Position numbers and translations under genes: made by a program
Shown: positions 3,657 to 35,122 of the stretch, piece after piece
Numbering within the stretch: position 1 is the first letter of the stretch
Layout: every line of letters starts with the position of its first letter
From: a virus
IMG/VR virus record: IMGVR_UViG_3300042444_000144
Span: 1-35,122 of that record
Strand: one strand, 5' to 3'
DNA: 35,122 nucleotides
Notes under the pieces: generated by a model
What the model was told of the DNA's origin: nothing
Databases searched by the model: none
The model's input: the letters and a program-made list of their open reading frames with translations, nothing else

Positions 3657-4594
3657 GGGAGCGGGTTAAAAGACACGGTTATAGAACCACCCCTCGCCGC
3701 AAATCCGTAGCTGCCGCCACCGCTTATCTGTAGCGGTGCCACGGACTGCAAATCAACTATTAATCCGCCGCCTGACGAAACAGTTCCAACTGCGTCACTG
3801 CACGACTCGTAAACGCACACTGCGCCGCCAGTAAAACCAACATTTCCGGGCGTCAATCCGGTTCGATCGCACGCCGTTTGTGCAGCGGCTCCAGTAGTTC
3901 GAATCGTTACTTGCACTGAAAACCGCACGTCATTACCAACCGTGAAAAACACCAGTACGACTTGGACAGATGCGCCACCTTGCGATGAATAGTTGCCAAG
4001 AAACGAGCATTTAGGCGTTGCCCCGGTAACGCTACACACCAAAGAGTTCAAGTAGCTATTGTTTTTTGAAAGGGAACCAGAGCCAGAAGCCGAAACGGAG
4101 TACGACGCATCAGGGCATACGTTGGCGTTAAACGCAGATTGGTAGAAACCTGATGCTGTGCCAGTAGTGCCAATCGAAATGCTAGTTACGTCACAGAGGT
4201 CGCACGGATTCGGCGTACACGTCGTCCCCACACCCTTGAAAGAAGGCGCGTTCGCCTGCGGTCTGTCGCCAGGCGAGCAAATTGAATTATCTGGCGTGGC
4301 TGCATCCGCACTACATCCGTAGCACGGCCGCCACACCCCACCACGGGCGGCGCACTCTGATTCAGTTCCGCCACGGCATCGCGGGCCAGTTACACCATTT
4401 ACCGTCATCGTGTCAGGTCCACAACACGAATTACTACGGCACTTGCACTGACACTGCGGCTTGACGCTGCACGACGTGCCCTCGCAGCAAGCGCCCTCTT
4501 GGCAGGCTTGCAGGCAGTCGGCCTGCGTAGCGTATGAAGTGCGACCCGTGGTCGTGACGCCAGATGGCAGCGAGGTTGATTGGTAGCAGGGCAT
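3653..4594 (-). CDS. Cysteine-rich virion protein, probable tail tip or adhesin
   Basis: A 313-residue protein with about 25 cysteines, 19 of them in the first 135 residues (for example CQEGACCEGTSC, CQCKC, NSCCG). The remaining two thirds are Ser/Thr/Gly-rich beta-type sequence, ending in AARGGSITVSFNPLP. Such a cysteine-rich head suggests zinc binding or disulphide-stabilised modules exposed on the virion. Position at the end of the tail genes fits a tail-tip or receptor-binding role, which is inference. The DNA is visibly more A/T-rich than most of the window, as often seen in host-recognition genes. The ATG at 4594 lies 4 bases after the upstream stop. Confidence 0.75.
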   Translation of the reverse strand: MPCYQSTSLPSGVTTTGRTSYATQADCLQACQEGACCEGTSCSVKPQCQCKCRSNSCCGPDTMTVNGVTGPRCRGGTESECAARGGVWRPCYGCSADAATPDNSICSPGDRPQANAPSFKGVGTTCTPNPCDLCDVTSISIGTTGTASGFYQSAFNANVCPDASYSVSASGSGSLSKNNSYLNSLVCSVTGATPKCSFLGNYSSQGGASVQVVLVFFTVGNDVRFSVQVTIRTTGAAAQTACDRTGLTPGNVGFTGGAVCVYESCSDAVGTVSSGGGLIVDLQSVAPLQISGGGSYGFAARGGSITVSFNPLP

Positions 4595-15227: not shown

Positions 15228-17368
15228 TACGGCACCGTAAGGGTTGCGGCGTTGCTAGTCACGCTTGCGGCGATAGCTGACGAAACGACAACGCGGTACT
15301 GGTCGCCGTCGTCGGCCGCCTTGCTCAATCCGCTCAACGAGAGAACGGATGCCGTGGCGTTGGCGATATTCGTGAAGACGGACGAGCCGACAGAACTGGC
15401 AGCGATTGTGCTGGTGCCTGCACCGTTCCCGGCTATAGCGACGAACACGCCGCCACCGTACGCGACACCACACCACCGAGCGCTGGCAGGCAGCGACCGC
15501 TGCACCCACACAATGCCGTCCGTGCTTTTAGCTACTGTGTTCGCGGCACCTGCGCCAGTTCTTGCTACAGCAAAAAACGCATCATCACCAAAGGAAACGT
15601 GACTCCACCCCGCAAAAGGCATTGCGGCTTCCGTCCAATTGATGCCATCAGCACTAGTGGCGGCAAAAGAACCAGACGAGTTAATCGCAACAAACACGCC
15701 ATTGCCATACGCCACACTCTGCCAATCGCGGGAATTAGGCAGAGTGCGCTGCGTCCACGTAACGCCATCTGGACTAGTGGCGGCGATGTCGCTACTGGAA
15801 GACGATACTGCGACGAACTTACCGTTTCCGTAGGTCACGCTCGACCACCTCGCGCTGGCCGGCAGAGTTTGCTGCGTCCAAGAACTTCCGTCCGCGCTAG
15901 TCGCTGCTACATTCGCGCCGCTGGAAAACGCGCCGCTACTGACTGCGACGAACGTACCGTTTCCGTAGGTCACGCTAGAGTACCTAACGCCAGTTGGCAG
16001 AGTGCGTTGCGTCCACGTTATGCCATCTGAACTAGTGGCGGCAACCGCACCCGCAGTTACGGCAACAAACGTGCCGCCTCCGTAGGCTACGCTTTCCCAC
16101 TCCTGATTAGATGGCAGCGTGCGCTGCGTCCATGTCGTGCCGTCTGTGCTAGTAGCGGCAATGTTTCCGTTTCCTGTTCCCTCGCCATTGGAGACGGCCA
16201 CAAACACGCCATTGCCGTAGGCTACGGAAGTCCATTCAGCACTTGGCAACGTACGCTGCGTCCACGTCATGCCGCTGGAATCTTTTTTCTGCCACTGGTA
16301 CGAAGGCGTGCCGTCGTGCGTCACGTATGCGGAAACGCTGAACGACGCTGCGCCGCTGCTGGAGGTCTGGTTTGCAGGATGTTGCGTGATGACAATTGTT
16401 GGCGTGGAGACGCCGTAGAAGAACCCGCAGTCAATGGCATCGTTTTTCCCAATCGCAGTACTTGCGACAGTGATCGTCTGCCCGGATGCCGTGATTGAGA
16501 TGTTCGTGCCTGGAGCGACTTCTACCGCGCCAGTTCTTCCAGCAACGGACACGACCGGCCCGTACTTCGCCGACTCAGTTGCAAAGTCGCTGATCGTCGA
16601 TGCCGTCTGCGTGCCGGTGTGGTTGGCTCTTTGTACGGCGAATGACTGCACGGCAGAGTCAGCAGACGCTTGAGCGGTGCTTACAGGTTTGTTTGCGTCT
16701 GACGTGTTATCGACGCTGCCAAGCCCAACGTCAGACGCCGCAAGAGTCACGGCACCAGTGCGGCCCGCCACGCTCTGCACCGGGGCTGCGGCTGCGGCAC
16801 GGACGTTTGTAAAGTAGAGGTTTGCTGACCCTTCCGGCACGGCATCCGTCGTGCCAGGAGATGGCGAGATCTCGATGAACGTGCTGCCAGACCATCGGTA
16901 GATCTTATTGGCGTTCGCGCCAGTGGACACAACGTAGATTTTTCCCGTGTCGCCGCTTTCGGGCAACGTGCCGCCAACGTCCACGACATCGTCAACGTAG
17001 CTGGGCAGATTCACGGCCTGCACAAGATTGTTGACCAGCCTAGGAATGTTGCTCCCAAGGCGAGCGTCTGGAACGATCCCAGACGAAAGCAGGCTGGCGT
17101 CCGCTGTCGCGCCTGGAATCCCAAAATCAAGCACGGCAGAAAACGCAGTGCCTGAGTTGTTGATCGTGACATTGCTGCCGGGGGCCAGCGTCGTCACCTT
17201 GCCGACCTGAACGGTCCCAGAGACGACTGTGGCGTCGCCCGGCGAGATCGCGCCAATAGCAACGCTGACATCGCCCCCGCTGCCGACCGTCGTGTTGACG
17301 GTCGCCGCTGACGATACCGACACGTTCGCCGCGCCGGAGTTTGTGACGTTGACTGTGATGTCGCTCAT
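15227..17368 (-). CDS. Fibre protein with seven propeller-type repeats inside an Ig-like domain
   Basis: A 713-residue appendage protein. Residues 1-100 are valine/serine-rich with collagen-free linker pattern; residues 120-168 carry the GKIYVV..KIYRW..FIEI module; two copies of SVAGRTGAV (199 and 274) mark repeated fibre segments. Residues 324-366 (ITQHPANQTSSSGAASFSVS ... SYQWQKKDSSG) and 663-713 (FTNIANATASVLSLSG ... DQYRVVVSS ... AATLTV) are the two halves of one Ig-like domain. Between them lie seven repeats of 39-46 residues with consensus WTQRTLP..W.SVAYGNG, FVAVS and AATS.DG, fitting a seven-bladed propeller. It is likely a sugar-binding or receptor-binding module. DNA is relatively A/T-rich and repetitive, so repeats may recombine. 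Confidence 0.85.
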   Translation of the reverse strand: MSDITVNVTNSGAANVSVSSAATVNTTVGSGGDVSVAIGAISPGDATVVSGTVQVGKVTTLAPGSNVTINNSGTAFSAVLDFGIPGATADASLLSSGIVPDARLGSNIPRLVNNLVQAVNLPSYVDDVVDVGGTLPESGDTGKIYVVSTGANANKIYRWSGSTFIEISPSPGTTDAVPEGSANLYFTNVRAAAAAPVQSVAGRTGAVTLAASDVGLGSVDNTSDANKPVSTAQASADSAVQSFAVQRANHTGTQTASTISDFATESAKYGPVVSVAGRTGAVEVAPGTNISITASGQTITVASTAIGKNDAIDCGFFYGVSTPTIVITQHPANQTSSSGAASFSVSAYVTHDGTPSYQWQKKDSSGMTWTQRTLPSAEWTSVAYGNGVFVAVSNGEGTGNGNIAATSTDGTTWTQRTLPSNQEWESVAYGGGTFVAVTAGAVAATSSDGITWTQRTLPTGVRYSSVTYGNGTFVAVSSGAFSSGANVAATSADGSSWTQQTLPASARWSSVTYGNGKFVAVSSSSSDIAATSPDGVTWTQRTLPNSRDWQSVAYGNGVFVAINSSGSFAATSADGINWTEAAMPFAGWSHVSFGDDAFFAVARTGAGAANTVAKSTDGIVWVQRSLPASARWCGVAYGGGVFVAIAGNGAGTSTIAASSVGSSVFTNIANATASVLSLSGLSKAADDGDQYRVVVSSAIAASVTSNAATLTVP
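15383..16270 (-). repeat. Seven tandem coding repeats (propeller blades)
   Basis: About 120-137-base repeats in the fibre gene, each encoding W-T-Q-R-T-L-P, then S-V-A-Y-G-N-G, F-V-A-V and A-A-T-S-x-D-G. Repeats 1-5 are close; 6 and 7 are more divergent. The seven start near residues 367, 411, 450, 495, 536, 576 and 619. They are in frame and explained by protein structure. Confidence 0.85.
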
Positions 17369-30191: not shown

Positions 30192-30502
30192 CTCAAACCG
30201 TGGAAGCGGTAGCCGTCCCACGAGTATTTTGGGATGCTGAACCGTTCTTCCTTCGGCGTTGGCACGACTCGCTTCGCTCTGCACTCAGCCGCACGCTCTG
30301 CTATCTGCTCAGGCGTCGGGTCGTCCTCAAAGATTTCCCGAGTCGGTTTCTGTCTGTGCGGCAGCTTGTGCCGTACCTTCAGGTGATGCACGAACGACTC
30401 GGAGCAGCCGAGGGCGGCGGCGATCTCCAAGTAGGAGTCGCCGCGCGCCCACAACTCGTGCAGCTTCGCCGCACAATATTCGATACGCCGACCGTTCTGC
30501 AT
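30188..30502 (-). CDS. GcrA-like helix-turn-helix regulator
   Basis: A 104-residue protein from ATG 30502 (TGATG junction after the sliding clamp); an upstream frame extension lies inside that gene. Residues about 12-48 are a helix-turn-helix: AAKLHELWARGDSYLEIAAA, LGCSESFVHHLKVRHKLPHR, which resembles GcrA-type or resolvase-type DNA-binding domains. The second half contains TPEQIAERAAECRAKRV and a closing FSIPKYSWDGYRF pattern seen in small phage regulators. It probably controls early gene expression. Confidence 0.75.
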   Translation of the reverse strand: MQNGRRIEYCAAKLHELWARGDSYLEIAAALGCSESFVHHLKVRHKLPHRQKPTREIFEDDPTPEQIAERAAECRAKRVVPTPKEERFSIPKYSWDGYRFHGLS

Positions 30503-31626
30503 CAGGCGTCCACCGCCAGTGGCATGATCACGCCCGTGTTGTCGCCGCATCGCAGAATCACAGCAGACTGTGCGTCCACGGCTTCGACTTCGACTTCCGG
30601 CTCTGCCTCGCTGTCGATGCCGCCAAGCCACTGCTGCACGAAGAGCGGATCGAGCTTGACCGTCGCCTTGTCGCCGGCTTCCACCACGTCACAGGTGACG
30701 CTCGATTCGCCCTTCTCTCTGCTCTGCCCGTGCAGCCAGATGCCGTCTCCAGAGAACACGAACTCAACGCCCTTGCTCTCGTCGCTGGTGACGATGGCTG
30801 CGGCCCTCGTCGCTGCCAGCAGATCCGCACGGCTGACCGTCGTTGCCTTAGCGTCACGTTCCGGCAGCGTGTCACGCCACCGAGGGTATCGACCGTCGAG
30901 CAGACGAGCCGTGACGGTAGCGTTGCCAACCGTGGCAACGATTTCGTTTTTGGTTGCCTCAAGCTGAACGCTGGCATCACCGAATGCAGCCGCGAGCCGT
31001 GCAATGATCGCCATGGCACGAGCCGGCACGAGCGTCTGCGAGTCGTCCACCGCTAGGTCGTGCTCGCAGTTGACGCACGAAAGCCGTCGCCCGTCCGTCG
31101 CAACAAACGTTACAACCTCGCCTTTGACTTCCACGAGCACCGCACCGAGAGCGTAGCGGCTCGACTCGTCATCGACAGCAAAAACCACGCCTTTCACCGC
31201 ACGGCAGAACTGATCCACAGGGAGCCTCGTGACGGGCTTTGCGCCGTCCACGTTCGACGCCGGATACTCGCCAGCGTCTTCCGTCGGTAGCGTCCACTCG
31301 CCACGACCAGCCTTGATGACGCACGACGAATCGTCAGGCGTGATCGTGATTTCATCGCCTGAGAAACTGCCGAGGATGGCGGAAAAGCGATCCTTCGGCA
31401 GCAGGAAATTGATGCCGGGGGGGGCGTTTTCCAGCGTGACGTCAATCCTGATGTCACCGTCACTCCCAGAAAGCACCCCGCCCGATAGGAGCACGCTCTG
31501 GTAGATGGGCCGTGGCGACCGGCTCGGCACCGCTTGTCCCACGGCTGCGAGCGCCGCCTTGAGTTCCAACGCCGACAGGCTGATGCCACCAGCCCGCGTC
31601 TTTCGTCGTTCCTTCGTTGCTGTCAT
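30502..31626 (-). CDS. dnaN: DNA polymerase III beta subunit-like sliding clamp
   Basis: A 374-residue protein with the three-domain clamp plan. Recognisable parts are LSALELKAALAAVGQAVPSR, RPIYQSVLLSG, FLLPKDRFSAILGSFSGDEI, FAVDDESSRYALGAVLVEVK, VTFVATDGRRLSCVNCE, LLDGRYPRWRDTLPE and a final DNTGVIMPLAVDA (clamps end near such a P-M-xx pattern). The first 15 residues are a basic extension. It would tether a polymerase to DNA; no phage polymerase is seen here, so host enzymes may be used. An AAAGGA sequence precedes the ATG. A run of eight C (minus strand) lies in the N-A-P-P-G codons. Confidence 0.93.
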   Translation of the reverse strand: MTATKERRKTRAGGISLSALELKAALAAVGQAVPSRSPRPIYQSVLLSGGVLSGSDGDIRIDVTLENAPPGINFLLPKDRFSAILGSFSGDEITITPDDSSCVIKAGRGEWTLPTEDAGEYPASNVDGAKPVTRLPVDQFCRAVKGVVFAVDDESSRYALGAVLVEVKGEVVTFVATDGRRLSCVNCEHDLAVDDSQTLVPARAMAIIARLAAAFGDASVQLEATKNEIVATVGNATVTARLLDGRYPRWRDTLPERDAKATTVSRADLLAATRAAAIVTSDESKGVEFVFSGDGIWLHGQSREKGESSVTCDVVEAGDKATVKLDPLFVQQWLGGIDSEAEPEVEVEAVDAQSAVILRCGDNTGVIMPLAVDA

Positions 31627-33045: not shown

Positions 33046-33233
33046 AGCCCCAACTCCGATTTCTCAATGACGCTTGCCAGCTTCACGTTTCGCTCTAGCG
33101 AAGCCTTCAGCGCCGTAGCACCCGTCTCGAACAGCGTCCGGTCGTCGTCGCTCACGTCGTCGTCCCACGCACGATCCATGAGCGCCTGCACGACATCGAG
33201 CGGTGCCGGGAGGTACTGCCACTCGGGCTTCAT
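33042..33233 (-). CDS. Small hypothetical early protein
   Basis: A 63-residue acidic helical protein: MKPEWQYLPAPLDVVQALMD, RAWDDDVSDDDRTLFETGAT and KASLERNVKLASVIEKSELG. It overlaps both neighbours by ATGA, between a LexA-like gene and the methyltransferase, so it is surely translated with them. No family recognised. Confidence 0.7.
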   Translation of the reverse strand: MKPEWQYLPAPLDVVQALMDRAWDDDVSDDDRTLFETGATALKASLERNVKLASVIEKSELGL

Positions 33234-33469
33234 GCGTCACCGCCGATCACACGAATCGTGCGAGAGTGACCGTCAACCCACGACACGGCTCCCTTCTTGC
33301 GCATGGGCCGCAGGTGGCACATCGCCCCGTTCACGGTCCACCCAAAGCCGGCGGCGATCTCTCGCACCGTTGGCGAGAAGCCGTGGACGTCGATGAATCC
33401 CGAGATCCACGACAGCACTTCCTGCTGCCTGGGCGTCAGTACCGGGGGGGCGTCAATTGTCGTTGTCAT
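33230..33469 (-). CDS. LexA-type winged-helix DNA-binding protein, no protease
   Basis: From ATG 33469 (ATGA overlap with the initiator gene) the product is 79 residues. LTPRQQEVLSWISGFIDVHG, FSPTVREIAAGFGW and TVNGAMCHLRPMRKKGAVSW match the LexA N-terminal winged helix, with LTPRQ..VL..I and FSPTVREIA as signature. The C-terminal serine-lysine protease half is missing, so it is not cut by RecA. It may be a small repressor or may bind the host SOS sites. An earlier start would run into the previous gene. Confidence 0.85.
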   Translation of the reverse strand: MTTTIDAPPVLTPRQQEVLSWISGFIDVHGFSPTVREIAAGFGWTVNGAMCHLRPMRKKGAVSWVDGHSRTIRVIGGDA

Positions 33470-34383
33470 TCGTTCACCTCGTCCGTGAGTTTGATCGAGC
33501 CTGCAAGCGCGGCGACCATGCCGCCCTTGCCCTGTTTGGCACGCCGGTACTCGGCGTCCGTCATGGATCGTTGGAACTCTGCCCGGTAGCTGGGACGCTC
33601 GTCCCACGACTTCGCCGGTGCTCGCTCGTCAGGACGAACGCCAGGCGTACGGTTCGTCCCGCCACGGTCCTGAGAGCGTGTCAGCCACGAGACGACGAAA
33701 CGTCGCCAGTTGCTCTTGTGAGCCTTTGTCGGGTTCGCCTTGAGCCAGGAGGCGGCTTTGGCGAGTTCTGCCGTTAGATCGCACGCTGGGTACGCCTGAC
33801 GCCATTCCTGCCGGTCTGCGTCCGTGATCCCCTGCCATCCTGCGTCAGCAGACCACGAAACGGCGTCTGCGGGCTGCGAGCGTTTCCGCCGCTTCGGCGG
33901 TTCGCTCGTAGCTACCTGCGCAGCAGGTTGTATTTCCTGTTCTGTTATGTCCTGTCCTGTTATGTACTGTGGTAGACGCGCCTGTAGACGCACCTGCGCC
34001 TCGTGCGCGTCTACAGGCGCGTCTACAGGTGCGCCTCCGGTGCGTCTCCACTTGTCCTGACGCCTGTTTTTCAGTGCTCTACGCTTGGCGGCACCGCCGA
34101 AACGCTCTTCCCATTTGGGTATCTGGGCAGTTTCGCCGTCGAACACGATCCACCCGACAGCCGCCACGGCTTCCCAAAACGGTGCGTCACCGCCGCAGAT
34201 GCGTCCAAGCCTGGCAGGCGTGGAACGGAAAGTGCCATCGGCAGTGTTTAGCTGCACCCAGCCCCAGAGTTTGAGCAACCGGAACACGATGACCTCAACC
34301 GGCTCGCCGGTTAGGTCAACGAGTTCCTGCACTTCTGGCTTGGTGTCGAGCGAGACGTCAACGGGGAACCATTCAGCAGCCAT
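33466..34383 (-). CDS. Replication-initiator-like protein
   Basis: From ATG 34383 (MAAEWFPVDVSLDTKPEVQE) the product is 305 residues; a TTG 21 bases earlier overlaps the nuclease gene and is less likely. Residues about 1-95 form a winged-helix-type domain (VIVFRLLKLWGWVQLNTADG, PFWEAVAAVGWIVFDGETAQ, IPKWEERFGG). A low-complexity linker (105-170; PVDAPVDA, ITGQDITEQE) carries the DNA repeats described separately. The C-terminal part (WRQAYPACDLTAELAKAASW, KSNWRRFVVSWLTRSQD) is the closing domain of many phage replisome-organiser proteins. It probably opens the phage origin and loads host helicase. Confidence 0.78.
   Translation of the reverse strand: MAAEWFPVDVSLDTKPEVQELVDLTGEPVEVIVFRLLKLWGWVQLNTADGTFRSTPARLGRICGGDAPFWEAVAAVGWIVFDGETAQIPKWEERFGGAAKRRALKNRRQDKWRRTGGAPVDAPVDAHEAQVRLQARLPQYITGQDITEQEIQPAAQVATSEPPKRRKRSQPADAVSWSADAGWQGITDADRQEWRQAYPACDLTAELAKAASWLKANPTKAHKSNWRRFVVSWLTRSQDRGGTNRTPGVRPDERAPAKSWDERPSYRAEFQRSMTDAEYRRAKQGKGGMVAALAGSIKLTDEVNE
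33935..33964 (-). repeat. Two tandem 15-bp direct repeats inside the initiator gene
   Basis: On the minus strand CATAACAGGACAGGA is followed at once by CATAACAGAACAGGA (14 of 15 the same), at 33950-33964 and 33935-33949. They are more A/T-rich than the surroundings and lie 8 bases from the long hairpin. They may be iterons of a replication origin. Confidence 0.55.
33972..34026. repeat. Perfect 20-bp inverted repeat, candidate replication origin hairpin
   Basis: GTAGACGCGCCTGTAGACGC (33972-33991) and its exact complement at 34007-34026 are separated by 15 bases. Each arm itself holds two GTAGACGC units, so the motif occurs four times, two per orientation. It encodes the low-complexity linker of the replication-initiator-like protein (PVDAPVDA). 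Origins inside the initiator gene are known in lambda-type phages, which makes this the best origin candidate of the window. Confidence 0.6.
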
Positions 34384-34393
34384 TGTCGGCTTT

Positions 34394-34822
34394 CTAAAAT
34401 TCAAAACACTTCTGCCGTGAGTACAACACCCTGTCGCCTTTGATCGCGTCCCATCTATTAGTCCATTCGCCTAGTTTTGCCGGATAAATCGCGTTGCGCA
34501 CTTCTCCGGCTTGGTTCGCAATGGCAAACGATGGGATTACAAACCAGATCGGTAGAAATCGAATCACAAAGAAATCGACATCGGAACACAGGTAGGCAAT
34601 CTCTGTGTTGCATCTGTTTGTCCTTAGCTTGATCCTGTCTCGCCTATAAACTCCATCCCTAGCCTTTACCTGAACTCGCATGCCGTTTACCTCAATGTCC
34701 CACGGCGTGCACGATTGCTTTTCAGGGATGTAAACGCTGTAGCCAAGCATTGAGCAGATTGACGCAACTTGCTCTTCGCATTGCCTGCCAATATCCCTTT
34801 GGCTGACGACAAGATTGTTCAT
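34394..34822 (-). CDS. PD-(D/E)XK-type endonuclease, A/T-rich
   Basis: From ATG 34822 (TGATG with the upstream stop; GGAGG 8 bases before) the product is 142 residues; an earlier ATG is part of that ribosome site. Residues about 10-60 have an N-terminal helix (RDIGRQCEEQVASICSMLGY), SVYIPEKQSC, then WDIEVNGMRVQVKARD, a D-x9-QVK pattern of the PD-(D/E)XK_5 group of nucleases such as intron endonucleases. The C-terminal half is beta-rich and aromatic (FFVIRFLPIWFVIPSFAI). Codon use is clearly more A/T-rich than in flanking genes, suggesting recent gain. It could be a homing-type or host-DNA-cutting nuclease. Confidence 0.75.
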   Translation of the reverse strand: MNNLVVSQRDIGRQCEEQVASICSMLGYSVYIPEKQSCTPWDIEVNGMRVQVKARDGVYRRDRIKLRTNRCNTEIAYLCSDVDFFVIRFLPIWFVIPSFAIANQAGEVRNAIYPAKLGEWTNRWDAIKGDRVLYSRQKCFEF

Positions 34823-35122
34823 CACGCATTCCTCCATTCCCTCTCGCCCCTGCCACTGCTACTCGCCACGAGCCGTCCCGTCTCCACGATCCTCCCAGCC
34901 CGTGCAAGCTCACCGAGCCGCTTGTTGACTTGGTGCCCCAGCAGCCCGCAGCGTGCAGCGATGCCTGACGCACCAGCTGGGCCGTGCGACAGCGCCTCAA
35001 GGATCGCCGCGTGGTGCTCGCCCTGGAACGTCTTGACGCTTGCGGCTGCGGCCTTGCTCGTCACCGGATCGGTGCGGCGAAACAGCGGCAGCGTGTCTTC
35101 GATGTCTGGCGTGATGTAGTGG
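34822..35122 (-). CDS. Winged-helix regulator, N-terminus beyond window
   Basis: The reading frame is open to the right edge; 19 codons can be read before the first GTG at 35064, and they look coding (PDIEDTLPLFRRTDPVTSKA). About 99 residues are visible. RRTDPVTSKAAAASV is a common opening of small phage helix-turn-helix proteins, and ILEALSHGPAGASGIAARCG, LLGHQVNKRLGELARAGRIV is a winged-helix domain with recognition helix and wing. It probably regulates early genes or helps replication. Confidence 0.8.
   Translation of the reverse strand, partial: HYITPDIEDTLPLFRRTDPVTSKAAAASVKTFQGEHHAAILEALSHGPAGASGIAARCGLLGHQVNKRLGELARAGRIVETGRLVASSSGRGEREWRNA

Follow-up and report, generated by a model that had tools for sequence, protein, structure and literature searches.

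A predicted replication origin in the linker codons of a phage initiator gene, with repeats that travel with its DNA-binding domain

To our knowledge, the replication origins of most environmental phages are unmapped. The placing of an origin within the gene of its own initiator is a kind already known, that of lambda O, P22, SPP1 and pSK41. Lambda, P22 (with gp18) and phage L (also with gp18) each have different iterons inside their own initiator gene (PMC8022706), and a passage on the melting region of lambda describes strand asymmetry there (PMC5043065). For phage SPP1, an excerpt places the direct repeats of oriL within gene 38, where they are bound by gp38, beside an unwinding region (PMC6316719). 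Plasmids use it as well. According to an excerpt on Rep of pSK41, a RepA_N protein, the origin boxes lie centrally in rep, where they encode a linker, and the N-domain of the protein binds them; the same excerpt reports a chimera of the pPR9 Rep in which N-domain and origin were exchanged together while the C-domain stayed, and which replicates (PMC5703833).

The case considered here comes from an IMG/VR virus record, IMGVR_UViG_3300042444_000144, of which the whole stretch analysed, 35,122 nucleotides, is called the window below. A replication-initiator gene, designated W, lies there on the minus strand at 33466..34383, with its ATG at 34383, and codes for 305 amino acids. Judged from its sequence, the linker of this gene very probably doubles as the replication origin of the phage. 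Two of the traits that mark an origin within an initiator are found in W: a DNA-binding N-domain with a separate C-domain, and an array within the gene that is constrained at the DNA level. As in lambda, the iterons lie mid-gene, with a purine-asymmetric, A+T-richer region beside them and the purines in the gene strand. Unlike those of lambda, which has four annotated 18-bp units, they are 8 bp long and arranged as direct plus inverted copies, and the W record has no DnaC-like gene by the PF01695 model. Lambda O, used as a positive control, displayed its annotated iterons and, starting from the last of them, a purine tract with the polarity of that in W; it is absent from the 40 matches listed out of the 43 phage records that match W. 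The likeness to SPP1 gp38 and oriL is one of layout, with repeats within the initiator gene, whereas SPP1 possesses a further origin and encodes a loader and a helicase itself. With the Rep proteins of pSK41 and pPR9, W shares central boxes within the gene and the joint swapping of N-domain and putative origin, and its N-domain has the three structural neighbours named below, but these are plasmids of staphylococci, and RepA_N (PF06970) was absent from a Pfam scan of W at E<=1.

A preliminary description of this DNA had placed the repeats within the linker of an initiator-like gene, and the assignment holds: residues 1-247 of the W protein match PHROG 2509, 'replication initiation protein', with E 2.7e-21. 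The family bears no Pfam name, W having no Pfam match above the curated cut-off (the best is DUF4857, E 0.2) and no NCBIfam match. Profile comparison brings it close to the YdaU/epsilon15-type replication proteins (probability 99.1, E 8e-19), with which it is, as far as profiles can tell, homologous. DUF1376 was not matched in W and 24 aligned proteins, in a scan that lacked a working positive control because it also missed Rac YdaU, which RefSeq assigns to DUF1376. A PDB sequence search with W gave five low-value matches, and its long recA rows held no qualifying stretch. In an AlphaFold2 model (mean pLDDT 64.5) the N-domain is good, with residue blocks 11-90 at means of 80-93, and together with its structural neighbours this model delimits a winged-helix DNA-binding core at residues 10-92 (34108..34356, minus strand). 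The neighbours are winged helices, including 5kbj (listed as 'Rep-DNA complex'), 4pt7 ('initiator') and 4pql ('DNA binding protein'), three chains that we take to be plasmid RepA proteins; they match residues 1-94 at Z 5.1-5.5, tied with regulators and ordinary winged helices. There follows a basic tail helix (residues 96-114, 34042..34098, minus strand), predicted by the model at residues 97-114 with pLDDT about 60 and carrying K105, Q109 and W112; the model, the iteron tracking and the residue table discussed below make it the proposed iteron reader. The C-terminal domain (about residues 166-260, 33604..33888, minus strand), delimited by alignments, is common to initiators with different N-domains and is proposed to contact the helicase or its loader, by analogy with the DnaT-like domains of some relatives.

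Three other genes of the window deserve a mention. A few genes downstream of the initiator, 30502-31626 (minus strand) encodes a homologue of the DNA polymerase III beta sliding clamp; it matches three clamp domains of Pfam at E 5e-18 to 1e-5, of which the third falls just short of its cut-off, and PHROG 947. Abutting the end of the initiator gene, an 80-residue frame, as scanned at 33230-33472 (minus strand), holds little beyond a LexA DNA-binding domain (PF01726, E 2.6e-17) and is a candidate local regulator. At 15435-16273 (minus strand), a sequence of about 47-104 bp is repeated imperfectly, in four to six copies, within a gene of 713 residues with an EPTP-like match.

Within the linker, the iterons are, as we read the repeats, 8-bp GTAGACGC units and not the 15-bp direct repeats put forward earlier. 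Counting octamers places iterons 1 and 2 on the gene (minus) strand at 34019..34026 and, 12 bp on, at 34007..34014, and iterons 3 and 4, inverted copies on the plus strand, at 33984..33991 and, again 12 bp on, at 33972..33979. The linker thus holds four copies, in agreement with the fourfold repeat unit of the preliminary description, and the whole window holds 10, against 1.28 expected from shuffles. Among the 7003 windows of 110 bases in the contig, those at the W linker have the most repeated 7-mers. When codons were redrawn synonymously for an unchanged protein, the part of the linker that carries the repeats, some 110 bases ahead of the tract described next, averaged 3.9 repeated 7-mers; the natural sequence has 29, a number that no recoding out of 500 attained. 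The inverted repeat, perfect over 20 bp around a 15-base loop, is also real: its arms, 33972-33991 and 34007-34026, are fully complementary, no other perfect 20-bp inverted repeat with a loop of up to 60 bases exists in the window, and in first-order random sequences the mean number of perfect inverted repeats is 0.025 already at 14 bp. Folded as DNA, the linker reaches z = -5.4. The two adjacent 15-mers match at 14 of 15 positions at 33935-33964 (or 33936-33965), at 6-7 bases from the stem rather than the 8 first given; they are part of the purine-rich, probably melting, side.

This side is a tract at 33929..33971 (minus strand), which lies directly 3' of the octamers and contains the 15-bp repeats; purines make up 70% of its gene strand, and A+T 60% of its bases, in a contig of 61% G+C. 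Composition, and recoding over 54 linkers, make it the proposed melting region, and by analogy with lambda the purine- and A+T-rich tract beside the octamers would be what opens. Taken alone, the W tract stays within the recoding null (p=0.17), and the window has 37 purine or pyrimidine segments with a score of at least 11; across the 54 non-redundant linkers, such tracts exceed synonymous recoding in 48, W's own not being one of them. The strongest segment of each linker (there always is one) shows purines on the gene strand in 49 of the 54 and pyrimidines in 5. Two other families, sampled as the best 80 of 549 and the best 80 of 579 relatives, add 63 non-redundant relatives, and in every one of them the strongest segment is a purine segment.

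Between the tract and the C-terminal domain, the comparison of 89 genes revealed a 15-bp dyad that the preliminary description had missed, ACCTGC-TGC-GCAGGT, at 33914..33928 (minus strand), present once in the window. Among the 89 genes, a count that leaves out 18 of 107 where the start of the C-domain was different, cut or unmatched, the dyad exists in six versions and is fully paired in 87; it is common to genes of seven N-classes. The stem is ACCGGC/GCCGGT in 67 genes, ACCTGC/GCAGGT in 12 and ACAGGC/GCCTGT in 7; changes in both arms set these three types apart. Read as codons, both changes from the commonest type leave one side silent and put glutamine instead of proline on the other, while the third type (ACAGGC/GCCTGT) may involve a codon deletion. 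At least two double changes are needed to explain the types, by a count made without correction for relatedness.

Viral contigs were searched for relatives with three queries, the complete protein, its N-domain (best 80 of 202) and its C-domain (best 80 of 111), which gave at least 198 gene records including W, 111 of them distinct and 107 left after removal of contained ones; a linker could be defined in 100 of the 107 (7 were dropped), and 54 linkers are non-redundant. The C-terminal domain is common to proteins with several clearly different N-terminal domains, and the initiator family is therefore modular. The preliminary description had advised looking for the same repeats in related phages, and at least two octamers were found in every one of the 22 genes with a W-type N-domain, W included. 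Columns where the amino acid is unchanged were compared over the 19 full-length genes of this class. Of such columns, 96 of 119 in the two domains differ silently between genes, and 7 of 29 in the linker do so (Fisher p 1.7e-8), a suppression of synonymous change that shows constraint at the DNA level. Within the linker, the columns with silent variation are 3 of 7 in the octamers, none of 7 in the tract and 4 of 15 in the rest; the octamer columns alone, set against all others, give p 0.20. Over the 54 non-redundant linkers there are 606 repeated 7-mers against 185 under synonymous recoding, with 29 linkers reaching p<0.05 singly and 25 not, and copy number varies among relatives in steps of 12 bp.

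Every N-class carries a repeat of its own in this position, be it GTAGACGC, GTGACGC, TTGTCCG, CGTCACG, CGTAAC, GGATCGCAAAC or others. Over the 48 genes with both domains, repeat sharing tracks identity of the N-domain given that of the C-domain (partial rho 0.26, reached by 0 of 2000 permutations), while its relation to C-identity given N is slight (partial rho 0.06, 255 of 2000), these being label permutations that leave shared ancestry in place. A repeated 6-mer is shared by 36 of 38 pairs with N-domains at least 90% alike, and by 7 of 20 pairs with N-domains below 30% and C-domains at 85% or more, the pair of W and L026 among them. As a case in point, L026 has a C-domain 94% like that of W and 98% like that of L004, another N-domain, and a different main repeat, CGTCACG; the repeated 6-mers that it has in common with W number three (overlap 0.43), and with L004 it has none. 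The gene L062 (3001-3720) combines a W-type N-domain, 82-84% like that of W, with another C-domain; three octamers are kept, and its linker has a different perfect stem, of 22 bp. As these sequences tell it, the repeat follows the N-domain when N-domains are swapped on one C-domain, and cognate binding is predicted.

Rac YdaU and the epsilon15 protein, with their relatives, resemble W in having linkers with GTAACGC or TGTCCGC repeats and purine tracts, which are putative origins; their C-terminal domains differ from that of W, being DnaT-like in 4 of 10, and some adjoin a gene annotated DnaC. Ten of eleven cultured-phage relatives, a count that stands without a null, have a purine segment as their strongest, placed in the linker together with the repeats or after them; phiRgIBDN1 shows repeats too, with its strongest segment elsewhere. 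The linker of Rac ydaU itself (L207, 1201-1989) combines GTAACGC repeats with a GAGGAAGAGGAAGA tract, a pattern that predicts the place of a Rac origin. An active Rac origin, oriJ, is mentioned in a passage of the literature (PMC3945230); a search for its place within Rac did not find it.

A mechanism may be sketched as follows. The N-terminal winged helix and the basic tail helix would bind the GTAGACGC octamers, two direct and two inverted, as the covariation of repeats and N-domains suggests. The assembled protein would strain and open the adjacent purine/pyrimidine-asymmetric, A+T-richer tract, and the C-terminal domain would bring the host helicase machinery at or beside the dyad. A single recombination at the border between dyad and C-domain could replace address and reader together, because helix, iterons and tract lie within about 185 bp of one gene. 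The anatomy of the linker, its constraint at the DNA level, the co-swapping of iterons with N-domains and the covarying dyad come directly from computation; binding, melting, helicase recruitment and origin activity are what we infer from them. The helicase step has no visible partner, because neither DnaB (PF03796) nor IstB/DnaC (PF01695) was matched in any of 12 records, the window and 11 long relatives, where controls were positive in 14 of 14 and 13 of 14 cases, respectively. GC skew shows no turn at the linker site, being negative in all but one of its windows, and another origin could lie outside the stretch analysed, because this linear virus record may be a fragment.

Several other accounts of the linker compete with that of an origin. 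The octamers might be an operator through which the initiator represses its own transcription from within its gene, with the origin elsewhere, and the constraint and the co-swapping with a DNA-binding domain indeed tell of a binding site, not of an origin as such. We consider this improbable, given that a search restricted to sigma-70-like sites found none in 33400-35000, and that the site sits mid-gene beside a strand-asymmetric tract and a dyad, in a lambda layout the function of which is known, as a passage on lambda describes (PMC5043065). A shade less probable again is a linker that would be mainly a recombination border, its DNA conserved for the exchange of N- and C-modules. Exchange does occur there, and the dyad stands at the border and crosses the N-classes; yet a border accounts for one shared sequence and not for a separate iteron array with each N-domain, and it has no need of a dyad whose pairing is kept through two-sided changes. 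To be sure, the roles of border and origin can coexist for the dyad.

The long stem, in turn, could make a cruciform or an RNA hairpin the working element, and both the DNA fold (z = -5.4) and the independent 22-bp stem of L062 speak in its favour. Against it, 20 of the 22 genes of the class keep octamers with stems of only 8-11 bp, the 20-bp stem being found in W alone. As a conserved element the hairpin is thus ruled out, and because 20 of the 21 other genes of the class have only these short stems, the long perfect stem appears as a by-product of the octamer arrangement. An RNA element was likewise discarded, no Rfam family coming near its cut-off (the best, isrG, scored 13.7 bits against 100), and a working hairpin is very unlikely. 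Hardest of all to credit is that the repeats reflect low complexity of the protein (PVDAPVDA, QVRLQARLP), or replication slippage, with no selection acting on the DNA. Short amino-acid repeats are indeed what the in-frame 12-bp copies encode, and the copy number of relatives does change by 12-bp steps, but the inverted copies encode a different peptide, recoding yields a mean of 3.9 repeated 7-mers against the 29 present, silent sites vary little in the linker, and other N-domains come with other peptides and other repeats at the same place. The origin within the initiator gene stays the favoured reading. As first proposed, it leaned on the stem and the 15-mers, which fall away; DNA constraint, co-swapping with the N-domain and the lambda-like layout uphold the rest.

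What in the N-domain would read the iterons? In the EW[IF]P family (38 genes), repeat sharing goes with the tail (residues 96-114) given the core at 0.54 (0 of 2000 permutations), and with the winged-helix core given the tail at 0.24 (4 of 2000); linkage alone could make the tail track the iterons, because tail codons adjoin them. A table of residues, found after the fact, covers 122 of 127 genes (5 of MARA/MARK type were left out), many rows within a family being related and not independent. In this table [DE]105 K109 accompanies GTCCG in 57 of 59 genes, K105 Q109 [WY]112 accompanies GTAGACG in 8 of 9, H105 Q109 Y112 accompanies GTGACG in 16 of 16, and T105 V109 accompanies GTAACG in 22 of 22. 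Lysine stands at 109 in all 57 of the 122 genes that have GTCCG repeats, 7 from the main set, 48 from a second family and 2 from cultured phages. Exceptions are L065, with K/Q/Y and no GTAGACG, and the class-E genes L034 and L037, which align E105 K109 without GTCCG; 16 of the 122 genes, including L132, L137, L151, L156, L159 and L186, have none of the four combinations, and 7 of these 16 are without a classified repeat. Residues 105, 109 and 112 would fall on one face of the helix. We are slightly inclined to think that a portable origin-address unit exists in several families, where helix residues i, i+4 and i+7 (105/109/112) name the iteron encoded a few codons on.

A scan that began from the motif, paired GTAGACGC in viral contigs, without protein information, produced at least 174 loci with at least 44 clusters in which 150 bases contain three or more octamers. 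Among the matches listed, an open frame over the cluster has RQ..W[RK] at most 45 residues upstream in 31 of 44; at random places in the same loci the signature occurs in 0.10% of 7659, the figure used here, since another null (86 of 17400) included true initiator genes. W-class genes account for 18 of the 31, as expected. Outside this class, and again among the matches listed, RQ..W[RK] is present in 13 of 26 clusters, 12 of the 26 have no signature, and the broader R[QV]..[WYFH][RK] is found in 14, which represent 12 distinct proteins (L376 and L421 encode the same one, as do L515 and L541); 10 of these 12 have lysine at 105, L422 and L462 being those without. Single-linkage blastp at E 0.01 puts most of the N-parts in one loose group and leaves two alone, and by tblastn these proteins from outside the class show 28-36% identity to the W N-domain or no match.

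A second scan, for three TGTCCG, was run with its prediction written first. Among the matches listed, [DE]..RK...[RK] appears in 7 of 120 against 1.0 expected (L692, L700, L722 and L734 look like initiators; L696, L739 and L777 do not), a looser form of the rule in 11 of 120 against 5.1, and the GTAACG rule once against 0.9; the GTAGACG and GTGACG rules gave none in the 120 listed. In bacterial genomes, scanned for three direct GTAGACGC, a layout absent in W, the tail signature was seen in 1 of 80 loci listed (L555) against about 0.3 expected, at least 9 of the 80 coming from one contig. Motif-first work thus backs one rule of the code strongly and another weakly, and the bacterial scan lends the code no support.

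In searches of one open-access library, by which alone the novelty of the code is judged here, we found no account of a recognition helix co-varying with iterons, nor of purine-rich phage origins; the residue code, the covarying dyad and this family would be additions. If the unit holds, the origin and the DNA target of its initiator could be predicted from the gene alone in many phages and prophages, the Rac prophage of E. coli K-12 included, and natural swaps would offer a ready library for studying what directs an initiator to its address and how phages trade their replication modules. If the code is true, origin specificity would be readable from sequence, and address and reader would move as one small cassette.

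Some genes depart from the common pattern. L167 and L170 have a MARK-type N-domain on a W-type C-domain, with long direct arrays of GGATCGCAAAC and AGCAAACG, several copies each, then a stretch that is pyrimidine-rich in the gene strand, a polarity opposite to that of most classes (p 0.06-0.07 against recoding). Downstream of the octamers, where other genes have the purine tract, the G+C-rich L422, L427, L482 and L487, with an RQxxWR tail, seem to carry instead short C-rich tandem repeats whose gene strand reads, for example, CCCGT, CCCGA or CCCAG; the melting region may be built differently in these genes, or the repeats may have another meaning. Finally L410, a distant initiator with 33% N-domain identity, packs eight GTAGACGC units into 77 bases (4066-4142), followed by a GAGAAGAGAAG tract.
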